Positions 13,716 through 20,279 of a DNA stretch of 26,241 nt are shown one piece after another. Every line of letters begins with the position of its first letter. Position 1 is the first letter of the stretch. Both the position numbers and the translations under genes were made by a program. Origin of the DNA: a virus. The notes under the pieces were generated by a model. The model searched no databases. It was not told the DNA's origin and saw only the letters and a list, made by a program, of their open reading frames with translations. The stretch lies in IMG/VR virus record IMGVR_UViG_3300022725_000147, positions 1 to 26,241 of that record; one strand, written 5' to 3'.

Positions 13716-14304
13716 CTACAACCATATCTTCAATCTCGTCCGCCGCAGATTGGTTATCCGCGCCCGCATCGCCCGCACTCGGTTCTTCTACCCGTTTGAT
13801 TTGTGTCCATGACCCGGCCAACCGTGCCACGGCCATAGATTCATCACGCGCAACTTTGTCGTAATCGACCACCTTGGCCTTAATGCCATTGTCAGGATCA
13901 TCACTATCCTCTGCCGGCTCACTGACCTGCGTAACTTCGACGTCGTTCAGCTCCCGGCATTTAGTCGCCAGCAAACTCTTGGCTGCATGGTTGCGCAGAA
14001 GAATTTCCACCACCTCAGACACATCCTTGCTTTGCAGCATTTCAAGTTCGATGCGTTGCTGTTGAACGCTCTTGTACTTGCTGCGTGGACTGCCTGGTGT
14101 GGCCCGGTTTACATTCCCTTTTGGTGCCCCTGAGCCCTTACCGCCATGCATGCGGCATGTGTCTGCCCCTCTTACAGCCGGGTTGTTACACTGCTTGCGC
14201 GATCGCTTTGACAGCGATTGACAGCGCGGTGTGCCTGCAAACTTCCCAGTTGCGATATGGGATTCAAACGTTTCTTTTGGCTGTTTTTCAGGTTGCTCAG
14301 ACAC
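13669..14304 (-). CDS. terS: Probable terminase small subunit
   Basis: This 211-residue protein has the N-terminal signature CQSLSKRSRKQCNNPAV followed by CRMHGGKGSGAPKGNVNR. The Cys-rich HGGKGSGAPKGN stretch is seen in many phage proteins directly upstream of terL and treated as DNA-recognition small terminases. The rest is helical and acidic, with ELEMLQSKDVSEVVEILLR and an acidic C-terminus able to contact TerL. It is the first gene of the late cluster, placed just after two terminators, and has no clear promoter or strong ribosome site of its own. Confidence 0.78.
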   Translation of the reverse strand: MSEQPEKQPKETFESHIATGKFAGTPRCQSLSKRSRKQCNNPAVRGADTCRMHGGKGSGAPKGNVNRATPGSPRSKYKSVQQQRIELEMLQSKDVSEVVEILLRNHAAKSLLATKCRELNDVEVTQVSEPAEDSDDPDNGIKAKVVDYDKVARDESMAVARLAGSWTQIKRVEEPSAGDAGADNQSAADEIEDMVVDAVNEAKEREKTLSE

Positions 14305-14353
14305 ATCAGATCAGCTACAGGTGAAAACTCGTTGAAAGCGAAGACACACAAAG

Positions 14354-14387
14354 AAACCCCGCAGGGATTGAGTTCCCTCGGGGTTTT
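14354..14387. terminator. Bidirectional hairpin terminator before terS
   Basis: AAACCCCG/CGGGGTTT, with an inner AGGGA/TCCCT, makes a long stem broken by one extra C around a 5-nt loop. T-rich DNA follows on the plus side (TTTTCTC), and TTTCTTT follows on the minus side, so it can act in both directions. It stands about 50 bp upstream of the terS start. Confidence 0.7.
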
Positions 14388-14408
14388 CTCATGTCAGATT
14401 ACGGGCAC

Positions 14409-14440
14409 AAAAAAGCCCCCGGACCGAAGCCAAGGGGCAT
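14409..14440 (-). terminator. Terminator of the AT-rich membrane-protein gene
   Basis: On the minus strand, GCCCC pairs with GGGGGC across a CTTCGG centre and is followed by six T. It lies 43 nt after the stop codon of the membrane-protein gene, and directly ahead of the second hairpin at 14354-14387. Together they isolate this insertion from the late genes. Confidence 0.8.
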
Positions 14441-14482
14441 TTCTCTAATTTGAATAAATGATGCCGTTACGAGCGCCCGTTG

Positions 14483-14980
14483 TCAAGAGTCAGCATCTTT
14501 TTTGCTGGAGGCATCTCTATAATCCTTGTGCGCTCTTCCAATCATCTCTTCACACATGAGCTGCATTTCAGGATTTAAGCTTATATAATCCTTGTTTTTT
14601 GAAAATGCATTCTGGAAAGATGTACACACAAAAGGCGTTGCAAACATCATGTCACTTTCTTTTGAATCCCAAAACGTGTAACCCCATAAAAGGGTTATCG
14701 GTACAATCACAACAATACCTAAAACGCAATTTTCCCATATATTTCGCTTAGTAGATAGGCGCTCTATATCGGTTTTTATTATCTTAGCTATAGCGGCACA
14801 GAAGAAAAAAAACATAGCAATTTTGAACAAACACAACGCAAATGTAATAAAGTTCATCACCATATCTGGATCATCTGAAATAGCTGAAGTTGCCATCACA
14901 CTCGTAAAGGCACCAATCATCCCGCCTGTCGCGCAAACTAATAGAAACTTTTTTATTTGAGATAGAATATTTACCCCCAT
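14483..14980 (-). CDS. AT-rich three-TM membrane protein (phage moron candidate)
   Basis: This 165-residue inner-membrane protein has segments near residues 11-33, 40-66 (a very hydrophobic MFFFFCAA core) and 84-103, and a soluble C-terminus with several Cys and a Lys/Asp-rich end. Its base composition is clearly more AT-rich than the surrounding genes and its codons differ. It ends in its own strong terminator and has AAAGGT about 5 nt before the ATG. These are hallmarks of a moron, a gene gained late and often active in the lysogen, for example superinfection exclusion. I recognise no family, so the role is an inference from context and topology. Confidence 0.75.
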   Translation of the reverse strand: MGVNILSQIKKFLLVCATGGMIGAFTSVMATSAISDDPDMVMNFITFALCLFKIAMFFFFCAAIAKIIKTDIERLSTKRNIWENCVLGIVVIVPITLLWGYTFWDSKESDMMFATPFVCTSFQNAFSKNKDYISLNPEMQLMCEEMIGRAHKDYRDASSKKDADS

Positions 14981-15016
14981 AGCTTACCTTTCCCTTTTTA
15001 ATTGAAATTTAAAACC

Positions 15017-17073: not shown

Positions 17074-17286
17074 TTAAGCCACTCGGGCCAGTTTGGTTGG
17101 CAACTGCTCCCTATGGCACTCGCCAGCTTCCTTTTCCTTCTGAATCCAAGCGTACAGGCGGGCTTGACCGGCTTTATCCAAATGATTGTGAAACGCGCAA
17201 CGAGCTGCGGTGTAGGCACCAGGTTCCCAAGTATCGGAATTGACAATCACCTTACGGGCTTCGTTGAGCGCTTCTTCCACTGTCAT
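17074..17286 (-). CDS. Small phage protein, 70 residues
   Basis: The 70-residue product (MTVEEALNEARKVIVNSD start) is helical with an AARCAFHNHLDKAGQARLYAWI segment. The ATG overlaps the stop of the upstream gene as ATGA, which supports translation by coupling. It has no membrane segment. No family recognised. It lies between a putative replication-associated gene and the Cys-rich gene. Confidence 0.6.
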   Translation of the reverse strand: MTVEEALNEARKVIVNSDTWEPGAYTAARCAFHNHLDKAGQARLYAWIQKEKEAGECHREQLPTKLARVA

Positions 17287-18011
17287 CCGTCCGCCCCTCT
17301 CAGCAACTCGGCGGCTTTACGGTCCAGTTCGTCCCGGTCCTGCCCAAAGCTTTGCAGGTCCACCTCGTCGTCAGTTTTGACCTTCCGCGCCTTTGGTTTG
17401 CCGCTTCCCTCTTCCAGGTTTTCGACAAAGCCAACGGCAGCGTTTCCAAACCGACGGCGTAGCTCTTCAATGAACTCGTCCCGGGTATCATGCTCGTCAG
17501 CCAGAAGGGCTTCGCGCTCCGCTTCTTTGCGGCGGCGTTCATGTTCGCGCAGGTGTCTCTCAGCGATAATCTGGGCGTATGTCCAACGCGAAACGGCCTC
17601 CTCAAAAACCTCCCGGATTTCCGCAACAGCGGGGCGAAAGATGAAGCGCTCCAGGATTTCGTTCGTCACCCGCTCATGCAGGGCTGCCGGATATTTGGAA
17701 TACACTCGAACCACATGAGCCAGGTAGATATTCGGGTTTTCCATCCGGTCCGCTGACTGCATGGATTGGGGAAATCCGCCAACGAGAGAATGCACTGCTT
17801 CCGTTGTCTGCCGACTTTCACCAGCAGGCGCATGCTCAGCGTCGATGCGCTCAACAATCGCCTGGCATTTCTCAACTGGCACAAGTTCGGAAAATTCATC
17901 AATGCGAGGCAGGACGCCATTATCCACCTTGAGGAGATGGTGGTATTCTCGCATCGCTTGAACAGCGACTGCACGGCGCTTGCTATCAAGCTGAACAACG
18001 TTATTCGCCAT
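17283..18011 (-). CDS. Replication-region protein, possible loader-like partner
   Basis: This 242-residue protein directly follows the DUF1376 gene and overlaps its end by 11 nt, with GGAGG 7 nt before the ATG. Residues about 80-135 (FPQSMQ..NPNIYLAHVVRVYSKYPAALHERVTN..FRPAVAEIREVFE) resemble a pattern often found beside phage replication initiators in alphaproteobacteria, in which a YP-x-x-V helix is followed by a P-T/A-V-A-E-I/L-R helix. The C-terminal half is a highly charged helix (HLREHERRRKEAEREA). Position suggests a partner of the initiator, such as a helicase-loading factor, but no catalytic motif is visible. Confidence 0.6.
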   Translation of the reverse strand: MANNVVQLDSKRRAVAVQAMREYHHLLKVDNGVLPRIDEFSELVPVEKCQAIVERIDAEHAPAGESRQTTEAVHSLVGGFPQSMQSADRMENPNIYLAHVVRVYSKYPAALHERVTNEILERFIFRPAVAEIREVFEEAVSRWTYAQIIAERHLREHERRRKEAEREALLADEHDTRDEFIEELRRRFGNAAVGFVENLEEGSGKPKARKVKTDDEVDLQSFGQDRDELDRKAAELLRGADG

Positions 18012-18870
18012 GGCGTATCCTCCGGTTCTGTTCGTAGGTTTTTAATCGATCGCACAGGCCTTGAGGCTGAGGTTTGGGAACCCCGGACGGATTGGGACCG
18101 CTTGTGGCATGGGAGCCAGCCATGGAAAGCCGGTGGATCGGGTTATCGAAATATTTCAGGCTGGAAACCGTTTCGCCTCGGGCGGCGACTTTCTCGGCTT
18201 CTGCCTGAATGGTTAGGATGATCTGCTCAGGGCTGGGACCTGATGCATGCCACGATGGGACGACGGCAAGTTGGGACTGATCACCCCGGATAAACGCAGT
18301 TCTGAGTTTATCGTTCGCAATCGGGGTTACGATCCGCAAAATCTGATCCTGCAATTCTGAAAGTTCTGTTCCGTTTTCTTCGCGCGCTAATGGTGGTGGT
18401 TTACCACTACCATTAACCGTAGGAGAAGGAGGGGGAGAAGGAGGGTTATTATTAAGTGTTTGTTTTTCCTCATTTTCACTTTCTGAAACATTTGGAAAAT
18501 CTTCATTTTTTTGATGATTTTTTGAAGTTTTTTTCGTGTTTTTTCTGCTTTTTTTTCCGCCTTTTCTTCCATTTTCTATATTGAAATTGGCCTTCTCGAT
18601 CTCTTCCAGAGCACGATTATTGACAATCATTCCCTCAACAATGGTGAGCTTGCCGCTATCAAATAATTCATTGACCACCTTGCGCATTGATCGCGCCTGT
18701 TTGAAGCCGAGCAACTGGCACAAATATCCTTCATCATAAGTGATCGGTTCACCTTGATTGTAGATCACGGAAAGTATATCGATGTAGCACCCTTTAGCAG
18801 CATGGCTGAGGCCGCGTGTGTCAGCCAGCCAATCGCGCGGGTAGAAGTCGAAACGAGGAAGCCCACTCAT
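18001..18870 (-). CDS. DUF1376 phage replication protein (initiator-like)
   Basis: This 289-residue protein starts with a DUF1376 domain (FDFYPRDWLADTRGLSHAAKG..YIDILSVIYNQGEPI..EGYLCQLLG), a winged-helix-like module found in phage initiator-type proteins. It continues through a very basic, Lys/Asn/Ser-rich low-complexity linker and a Pro-rich stretch (NNPPSPPPSPT) to a C-terminal helical part. The ATG at 18870 overlaps the helicase stop as ATGA. The linker is encoded by phased A/T tracts, which may themselves be functional. By analogy with lambda O, the gene could carry the origin it acts on; this is an inference. Confidence 0.75.
   Translation of the reverse strand: MSGLPRFDFYPRDWLADTRGLSHAAKGCYIDILSVIYNQGEPITYDEGYLCQLLGFKQARSMRKVVNELFDSGKLTIVEGMIVNNRALEEIEKANFNIENGRKGGKKSRKNTKKTSKNHQKNEDFPNVSESENEEKQTLNNNPPSPPPSPTVNGSGKPPPLAREENGTELSELQDQILRIVTPIANDKLRTAFIRGDQSQLAVVPSWHASGPSPEQIILTIQAEAEKVAARGETVSSLKYFDNPIHRLSMAGSHATSGPNPSGVPKPQPQGLCDRLKTYEQNRRIRHGE
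18506..18575. repeat. Phased T-tracts (predicted bent DNA) inside the DUF1376 gene, candidate origin
   Basis: Seven T-tracts are centred at about 18509, 18520, 18531, 18541, 18552, 18563 and 18573, so every step is 10 to 11 bp. Tract lengths are 7, 6, 7, 6, 8, 4 and 4. Such helical phasing gives strong intrinsic curvature. The segment is by far the most AT-rich in the replication block. Lambda-type phages keep an AT-rich, bent origin inside their initiator gene. A part of the pattern follows from Lys codons, so chance coding bias is the alternative. Confidence 0.5.
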
Positions 18871-20279
18871 GCCACCCCCCTGCGCTTCATCGCATGGCGG
18901 CGCTGCAACACCTGTCCTACCCATTCTTTGGGAAGACCACGAATGTAGGCTACGCGCTCAAGGTCCCGTTTGTTCTTTGCAATTTCCAAAGCGCTCTGGA
19001 AGCTCATGTCCCGGATCTGTCTGGCAGAATAACAGCGGATACCCGGCACGCCGCGCAACTGGGTATCGTTGAGGCCGTTGTGGCATGATTTGACCTTCCG
19101 ATAGACATGGCCGCATGTCGGGCACCTGTCAGCTTTCTCGTGAACACGCGAACAGCGCGGACACCGGTTAATCAAGGTATTGTTTTTGTCGATAGAAATC
19201 AGGCCTTCGCGCAGTGACCATTCCCGGTCCGCCTCAGGCAGGCCATGCTTGGCCCAGTTCTGTACAAAATCCAGAATAACTGAGTGCTTTTTGCCTTTAT
19301 GCAGGCGGAAAGTCCGACCGTTCTGCTGGTCGTAAAGAGCCGTTGATTCTGTTGGGCGCAGGTTTAAGGCTGCTCCCACTATAGGAATGTCGGTTCCCTC
19401 AGATATAATATCGCAGGACGTCAGGTTCTGTATTCGCCCTTTCCCCAGTCCTGAAATGGCGTTCTCGCGCTCCATGACGCCCATAGAGCCATCAAGGTTG
19501 GTTGCCATCCACCCGGAAGCGGAAAACGCCTCAGCGACGCGAAAAGCGCTATTTACACCTGCACAAAAAGTAATGGCGGGAACGCCTGGGCAGAAATGCG
19601 CATAGGATTTCACCACAGGGCGCAGGTCTATTTCTTCCATGACGCGGTTCAGCTCGCCGCGAGCAAAATCACCACCACGTTTTGTGATTCCGGACAAGTC
19701 CACATTCAGATCAGGCGCAAAGACAACAGACGGAGCAATATAGCCCCATTTTATCAGTTGTGCCTTGGTCGGGCCTTTTACGGCTTCAACGAACGCAGAG
19801 CCTAAGGGTTTGCCGTCCTGCCGCCAAGGCGTTGCGGTACAACCCATAATCAGCGCCTTTACAAGAGCCGCCTGCACACGCCCCCAGGAGGACGCGACAA
19901 TATGGTGGGCTTCATCAAAAATGGCTAAATCAATAGTACTTAAAAATGGTCTTAATGAATGAAGGCGACGATCAACGGTATCGATCGAGGCCACATGAAT
20001 TTGATGGGATGTCGGCTCATGCCCCGGCGCAATAACCCCAACGTCCAGCCCCATCTCCTTAAGGGTTTTGACGGCCTGGTGAAGCAGTTCCTTGCGATGA
20101 ACGAAAATGCAAATATTGAAATTAAGTTGTTGTAAAAGAAAGAAACACAGGCGCGTGAAAACACGGGTTTTCCCGCCTGCCGTCGGTAACACATACAGGA
20201 AACCGGGGACACGGCGCTGAACGCAAGCCATCAGGGCGTTGAGGTCGTTGCGTTGATATTGTCTCAGGTCTTCCATCAT
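18867..20279 (-). CDS. SF2 DEAD/DEAH-box helicase, phage type
   Basis: This 470-residue helicase has Walker A at 32-38 (PTAGGKT), Walker B DEAH at 122-125, motif III-like GCTATP (146-151), and the C-terminal RecA-like domain with motif VI QQNGRTFR (318-325). A CxxC pair (CPRCSRVHEKADRCPTCG, 373-390) forms a zinc ribbon after the second domain. It unwinds nucleic acid using ATP; in many phages such a RAD25/UvsW-like enzyme takes part in replication or recombination. The start overlaps the RusA stop as ATGA and its stop overlaps the DUF1376 start. There is a second ATG at codon 2. No primase is present next to it. Confidence 0.9.
   Translation of the reverse strand: MMEDLRQYQRNDLNALMACVQRRVPGFLYVLPTAGGKTRVFTRLCFFLLQQLNFNICIFVHRKELLHQAVKTLKEMGLDVGVIAPGHEPTSHQIHVASIDTVDRRLHSLRPFLSTIDLAIFDEAHHIVASSWGRVQAALVKALIMGCTATPWRQDGKPLGSAFVEAVKGPTKAQLIKWGYIAPSVVFAPDLNVDLSGITKRGGDFARGELNRVMEEIDLRPVVKSYAHFCPGVPAITFCAGVNSAFRVAEAFSASGWMATNLDGSMGVMERENAISGLGKGRIQNLTSCDIISEGTDIPIVGAALNLRPTESTALYDQQNGRTFRLHKGKKHSVILDFVQNWAKHGLPEADREWSLREGLISIDKNNTLINRCPRCSRVHEKADRCPTCGHVYRKVKSCHNGLNDTQLRGVPGIRCYSARQIRDMSFQSALEIAKNKRDLERVAYIRGLPKEWVGQVLQRRHAMKRRGVA

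Follow-up and report, generated by a model that had tools for sequence, protein, structure and literature searches.

The window, a virus record of 26,241 nucleotides that is probably a fragment, contains a gene for a DUF1376 (YdaU-like) protein amid phage replication genes, directly after a helicase gene and with a RusA gene located upstream. The original prediction placed these genes in a prophage, a status that nothing seen in the record shows. The following features were identified at the locus.

17283 to 18011, minus strand: next gene downstream of the DUF1376 gene, without a family match
18001 to 18870, minus strand: DUF1376 (YdaU-like) replication initiator gene, 289 amino acids, assigned by Pfam and PHROG, with the start taken from the alignment with relatives
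18388 to 18415, no strand: near-perfect palindrome TAATGGTGGTGGT-N2-ACCACTACCATTA, with 13-nt arms that are 92% complementary and a 2-nt loop
18390 to 18590, minus strand: linker with an AT bias at synonymous sites (third-position GC 0.05-0.35, compared to 0.56 phage-wide), the candidate origin segment
18422 to 18445, minus strand: perfect tandem 12-mer (CCCTCCTTCTCC)2, an array of 6-bp pitch that corresponds to the 6/7-bp repeats found in relatives
18506 to 18575, plus strand: seven phased T-tracts, which form an A-run array of 11-bp pitch on the coding strand
18595 to 18849, minus strand: DUF1376 domain, a predicted winged helix (AlphaFold2 model), presumed to bind the origin
18867 to 20279, minus strand: helicase gene (ResIII/DEAD type), immediately preceding the DUF1376 gene in the operon

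The start of the DUF1376 gene was assigned by alignment with relatives to the ATG at 18870, not to position 18924, and overlaps the stop codon of the helicase gene (ATGA). The gene product matches DUF1376 in Pfam (PF07120; E=8.8e-11, 42.5 bits compared to a gathering cut-off of 30.1) and a primosomal protein in PHROG (E=1.2e-22). Pfam gave DUF1376 only, and Phage_rep_O (PF04492), which was matched by an O-protein control (L203), is absent from the window protein. In relatives, the position of the downstream gene is often occupied by a DnaC-like loader or a DnaB helicase.

In the AlphaFold2 model, a confident winged-helix-like domain consisting of helices and a beta wing comprises residues 23-83. 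It is followed by a helix (residues 85-115) that loses confidence within its Lys-rich part, the model confidence being 60 or lower from about residue 111, by a region predicted to be disordered (about 116-165) and by a helical C-terminal part. In a structure comparison with VIA, the DUF1376 domain was closest to RepA-type initiators with the PDB entries 4pql, 4pt7 and 5kbj (Z 8.5-8.9 over 73-83 residues); when 4pta is included, the range is Z 8.0-8.9. The titles of these four entries name an initiator, a Rep-DNA complex or the N-terminal domain of a DNA binding protein, and we take all of them to be plasmid proteins. These initiator N-domains rank above the winged helices of ORC2 and LexA. Since the Z-scores are moderate, the matches are regarded as supportive only; the identity is only 12-14%, and a membership in the RepA-type group is not claimed. 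By Foldseek alone, no significant PDB match was obtained for the domain.

Phased T-tracts and AT bias in the linker

In the linker after the winged-helix domain, seven T-tracts of 4-8 bases were identified (18506-18512, 18518-18523, 18528-18534, 18539-18544, 18549-18556, 18562-18565 and 18572-18575). Their centres are located at 18509, 18520.5, 18531, 18541.5, 18552.5, 18563.5 and 18573.5, giving centre-to-centre steps of 11.5, 10.5, 10.5, 11, 11 and 10 bp. The claim of seven helically phased T-tracts inside the replication gene was therefore confirmed, with steps of 10-11.5 bp. When up to three mismatches were allowed, the pattern T6-N5-T6-N5-T6 gave 16 overlapping matches at this site compared to 0.13 expected, and no other site in the whole record. 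Strong bending had also been predicted here, and with a dinucleotide wedge model the site was found to be the most curved of the record, with a bend of 147 degrees over 80 bp at 18507. In the rest of the record the next separate peak reaches 89 degrees, the mean being 30 +/- 16 degrees.

Whether this arrangement exceeds what the protein and its codons provide depends on the codon usage assumed. With the protein fixed and codons drawn with the phage-wide usage, the p-values were 0.008 for the curvature and below 0.0002 for the phasing, while with the AT-rich codon usage of the linker itself neither was significant (p=0.52 for curvature, p=0.06 for phasing). Shuffling of the codon order abolished the phasing (p<=0.0002). 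These results showed that the phasing of the T-tracts is given by the order of the Lys codons together with an AT-biased choice of codons.

The AT bias is a property of the linker. Around codons 100-160 (18390-18570), the third-position GC is 0.05-0.2, compared to 0.56 across the phage. For 54 non-redundant relatives, drawn from viral contigs and from phage or plasmid records, the third-position GC of the linker is about 0.40-0.47 compared to about 0.68, and the minimum lies 0-80 codons past the DUF1376 domain in 48 of 55 genes. Other genes at these loci show a smaller dip (p=1.5e-10). From the named hits, we infer that the first set of relatives is of alphaproteobacterial and a held-out set of beta- and gammaproteobacterial origin. 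As a separate observation on base composition, the lowest GC of the record is found at 14251-15000 (about 0.37 at 14501-15000), between the packaging and the early genes.

Repeat arrays in the linkers of DUF1376 genes

A near relative of the window phage was not identified: DNA searches of phages and plasmids gave no match, genome contigs contained no relative, neither the downstream gene nor the portal led to one, and the relatives found by the terminase carry a different replication module. Among the relatives of the DUF1376 gene, the phasing proposed to be conserved is mostly not kept. Phased A-tracts are absent in the closest relative (L001) and in most of the others examined, and phased A-runs are present in a few (L072, L032, L097 and L069). 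For 34 of 55 genes, compared to 16.6 expected by length, the curvature maximum falls into the linker, a position that probably follows the AT content, and the curvature beats codon-order shuffles (p<0.05) in only 9 of 54 relatives. Conserved curvature was therefore rejected as the key feature of the linker.

A feature shared by the family was identified by a scan for the pitch of direct repeats in 72 non-redundant DUF1376 genes, with codon permutations that preserve the protein as the null. Period 11 gave z=18.7, with 34 genes past their own 97.5 percentile, and its harmonics were detected at periods 22 (z=14.2) and 33 (z=8.2). Periods 6 (z=13.3) and 7 (z=15.4) were also enriched, the values for neighbours such as 10 and 13 being near 2. 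Both types of array are concentrated in the linker that follows the domain. With 233 further genes from these loci as controls, 41 of the 72 genes exceeded the 95th percentile of the controls at period 11, and 27 exceeded the control maximum. Since 11 is not a multiple of three and the repeats are thus out of frame, period 11 is not explained by repeats in the protein. The result was obtained again with the held-out beta- and gammaproteobacterial set (z=22.7 at period 11, 14 of 17 genes), in which the repeat is GTTCAACGACC. For a lambda-type O gene used as a positive control (mEpX1, L203), the scan identified an array at 24-bp pitch. Examples of 11-bp arrays are the following.

L042: GTTCAACGGTC GTTCAACGGGC GTTCAAC
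L076: GCAATGCGTTC GCAATGCGATG GCAATGC
L098: ATACGGGCGTT ATACGGACGCC
Moraxella phage L201, L287: GTTCAACGACC

In most relatives the 11-bp array is located near residues 110-125 and the 6/7-bp array near residues 120-150. In all 24 genes that score for both, the 6/7-bp array lies 3' of the 11-bp array, commonly with a gap of 0-3 bp. Its units are AACCAGA, ATACAGAT or AACCAC, and the encoded peptides are PEPEPE, TDTDTD, NHNHNH or NQKPDTR. Because the array encodes different peptides in different frames, it is the DNA rather than the peptide that is kept. The motifs GTTCAAC, GCAATGC and ACCAGA recur in a fixed order across phages of alpha-, beta- and gammaproteobacteria.

Two further observations were made on these genes. 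In L217, L215, L229 and L228, a second 11-bp array, GTTGGACGGAC GTTGAACGGTC GTTGAACG, was identified within the DUF1376 domain at about codon 49; it corresponds to the linker motif GTTCAAC in inverted form and is perhaps an autoregulatory site. In Vibrio phage 1.183.O, the record annotates a 'CRISPR spacer' within the DUF1376 gene (L202:1861-1890), probably a misannotation due to the repeats.

In the window, the A-run array corresponds to residues 97-122 and the 6-bp array to residue 142. The period-11 score of 18.2 is higher than that of all 233 controls, with period 12 scoring 18.8; compared to synonymous nulls, the 11-bp score has p=0.028 with the codon usage of the gene and p=0.086 with the local usage. 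The period-6 score is matched by 3 of the 233 controls. The two arrays are separated by 63 bp, compared to 0-3 bp in most relatives, and long gaps were also found in L072 (63 bp) and L001 (42 bp). The linker of the window contains no clean iteron of the GTTCAAC or GCAATGC type, the array consisting of low-complexity A-runs. Judged by its sequence, the window fits the two-array layout, with the first array being what appears to be a degenerate A-run array. The palindrome at 18388-18415 flanks the tandem 12-mer within the coding sequence and possibly forms a hairpin. A second short inverted repeat, with 11-nt arms and a 2-nt loop, is present in the same gene at 18289-18312.

The proposal that the linker is kept for the shape of its DNA rather than for its protein sequence thus holds in part. 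A constraint on the DNA is supported at the level of the family, where out-of-frame repeats exceed shuffles that preserve the protein, but curvature as such is not kept.

A putative origin within the initiator gene

With a probability of roughly two in three, the segment 18388-18580 is the replication origin of the phage, contained in the linker region of the gene for its initiator. We infer that the repeats are bound by the DUF1376 protein and that the T-tracts represent the 11-bp array in this phage, not just a bend or a melting region. In the proposed mechanism, the winged-helix domain at the N-terminus of the DUF1376 protein would recognize repeats spaced by about 11 bp, which in the window are the A/T-runs at 18506-18575. 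Protein molecules bound next to each other along the same helix face would bend and strain the DNA and would melt the AT-rich stretch, with help from the neighbouring 6-bp repeats (18422-18445). The DUF1376 protein would then recruit the replicative helicase.

Other types of origin evidence were also considered. For an origin based on DnaA boxes, 10 boxes with one mismatch were found in the whole record compared to 5 expected, none of them in the linker, and this candidate was rejected. A switch in GC skew was not used as evidence, because the skew follows the gene strand here.

A different role for the T-tracts, considered rather unlikely, is that of an AT-rich unwinding element, with the initiator binding elsewhere, for example to the 12-mer repeat or the palindrome. 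This would be consistent with the T-tract region having the lowest third-position GC and a very low GC of the gene, with the clean 12-mer repeats and the palindrome being located 60-120 bp away, and with the organization in lambda and SPP1, where unwinding takes place in an AT-rich region of its own next to the iterons (PMC7466680, PMC6316719). However, the T-tracts match the iteron arrays of relatives in position and pitch, and these arrays precede the 6/7-bp repeats.

That the phasing is a functionless by-product of the protein is regarded as distinctly unlikely. A Lys residue at every third or fourth position of a basic helix or linker would place A-runs at intervals of 10-11 bp, the DNA length for 3.6 residues being about 10.8 bp. 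The predicted helix 85-115 indeed runs into the Lys-rich stretch, and the loss of phasing on codon-order shuffling, its reproduction by the protein together with the local codon usage (p=0.06-0.52) and the lack of conserved curvature all agree with this explanation. However, the confidence of the model has already fallen where this helix would have to continue, and about 60 codons, those of the Pro/Ser part among them, have a third-position GC close to zero, so that codon choice, too, is biased towards AT. Moreover, relatives without a Lys periodicity still have 11-bp DNA repeats in the same place. Very improbable is a neutral origin, in which relaxed selection in a slippage-prone, disordered linker accumulates AT-biased runs and repeats: the linker is predicted to be disordered at about 116-165 and regions of this kind often contain short tandem repeats, yet slippage by 11 bp breaks the frame while 11 is the strongest period, the same motifs occur in fixed order across the three proteobacterial classes, and the other genes of the same loci are without such repeats.

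Origins located in the gene of their own initiator are already known. The origin of lambda and of the lambdoid Stx phages lies in the middle of the initiator gene O, as known from experiments, and combines intrinsically bent direct repeats, which serve as binding sites, with an adjacent AT-rich stretch, a helicase-recruiting partner being encoded next door (PMC7466680). For Pseudomonas phage MD8, repeats within an O-like gene were taken by the authors as support for a lambda-like mechanism (PMC8508860). The window differs from lambda in that its DUF1376 protein is not a Phage_rep_O protein and in that its array has a pitch of 10-11.5 bp compared to 24 bp in the O gene of mEpX1; in addition, DUF1376 genes have 6/7-bp repeats immediately past the iterons. 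The suggestion of a lambda-like origin within the initiator gene is well supported by the succession of 11-bp and 6/7-bp repeats in relatives, but mostly not in its part on conserved phased bending. In SPP1, oriL is known from experiments to lie within gene 38; direct repeats and an AT-rich unwinding element are located inside the gene of the origin-binding protein, and the phage encodes a helicase loader and a DnaB-type helicase (PMC6316719). SPP1 is a phage of Firmicutes, and the comparison with it concerns the layout.

A DUF1376 protein is also encoded by the E. coli Rac prophage, namely YdaU (L111:6120-6977), which resembles the window protein in the DUF1376 domain only. Its C-terminus matches the lambda-type replication protein O and, weakly, DnaT. 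The linker of ydaU contains repeats of the TGTT or TGTC type at L111:6512, 6545, 6557, 6568 and 6581 (spacings of 33, 12, 11 and 13), followed by AAAGATACAGATAAAGAT, a layout similar to that of the other DUF1376 genes. An active origin of Rac, oriJ, has been reported (PMC3945230), and it is predicted that oriJ lies in ydaU. As a side observation, YdaU combines the DUF1376 N-domain with a C-terminal part common to O-type proteins (those of Gifsy-1, mEpX1 and others), an architecture that may represent a swapped origin-binding module.

Beyond the window, DUF1376 proteins may constitute a widespread class of initiators in phages of proteobacteria, a proposal made tentatively and at somewhat less than even odds. 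In such a class, the origin would lie in the linker of the initiator gene as two DNA ladders, one of 11-bp binding sites that are spaced by one helical turn and an adjoining 6/7-bp ladder of ACCAGA-like units that guides melting or single-strand loading. Odd peptides like PEPEPE, TDTDTD, NHNHNH or the Lys-rich stretch would be by-products of the function of the DNA, and the window would be an extreme member, in which the binding ladder is now a phased A-tract. A DUF1376 class with 11-bp and 6/7-bp ladders is apparently undescribed, since literature searches for DUF1376 or YdaU together with replication retrieved no origin report. If the proposal is true, it would provide a function for the DUF1376 domain and would mark the origin in very many uncharacterised phages and prophages of proteobacteria, including Rac. 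It would also explain the repetitive peptides in the linkers and predict where minimal replicons can be excised. Sites spaced by one helical turn next to a ladder of short repeats would offer a simple design for testing models of origin melting.
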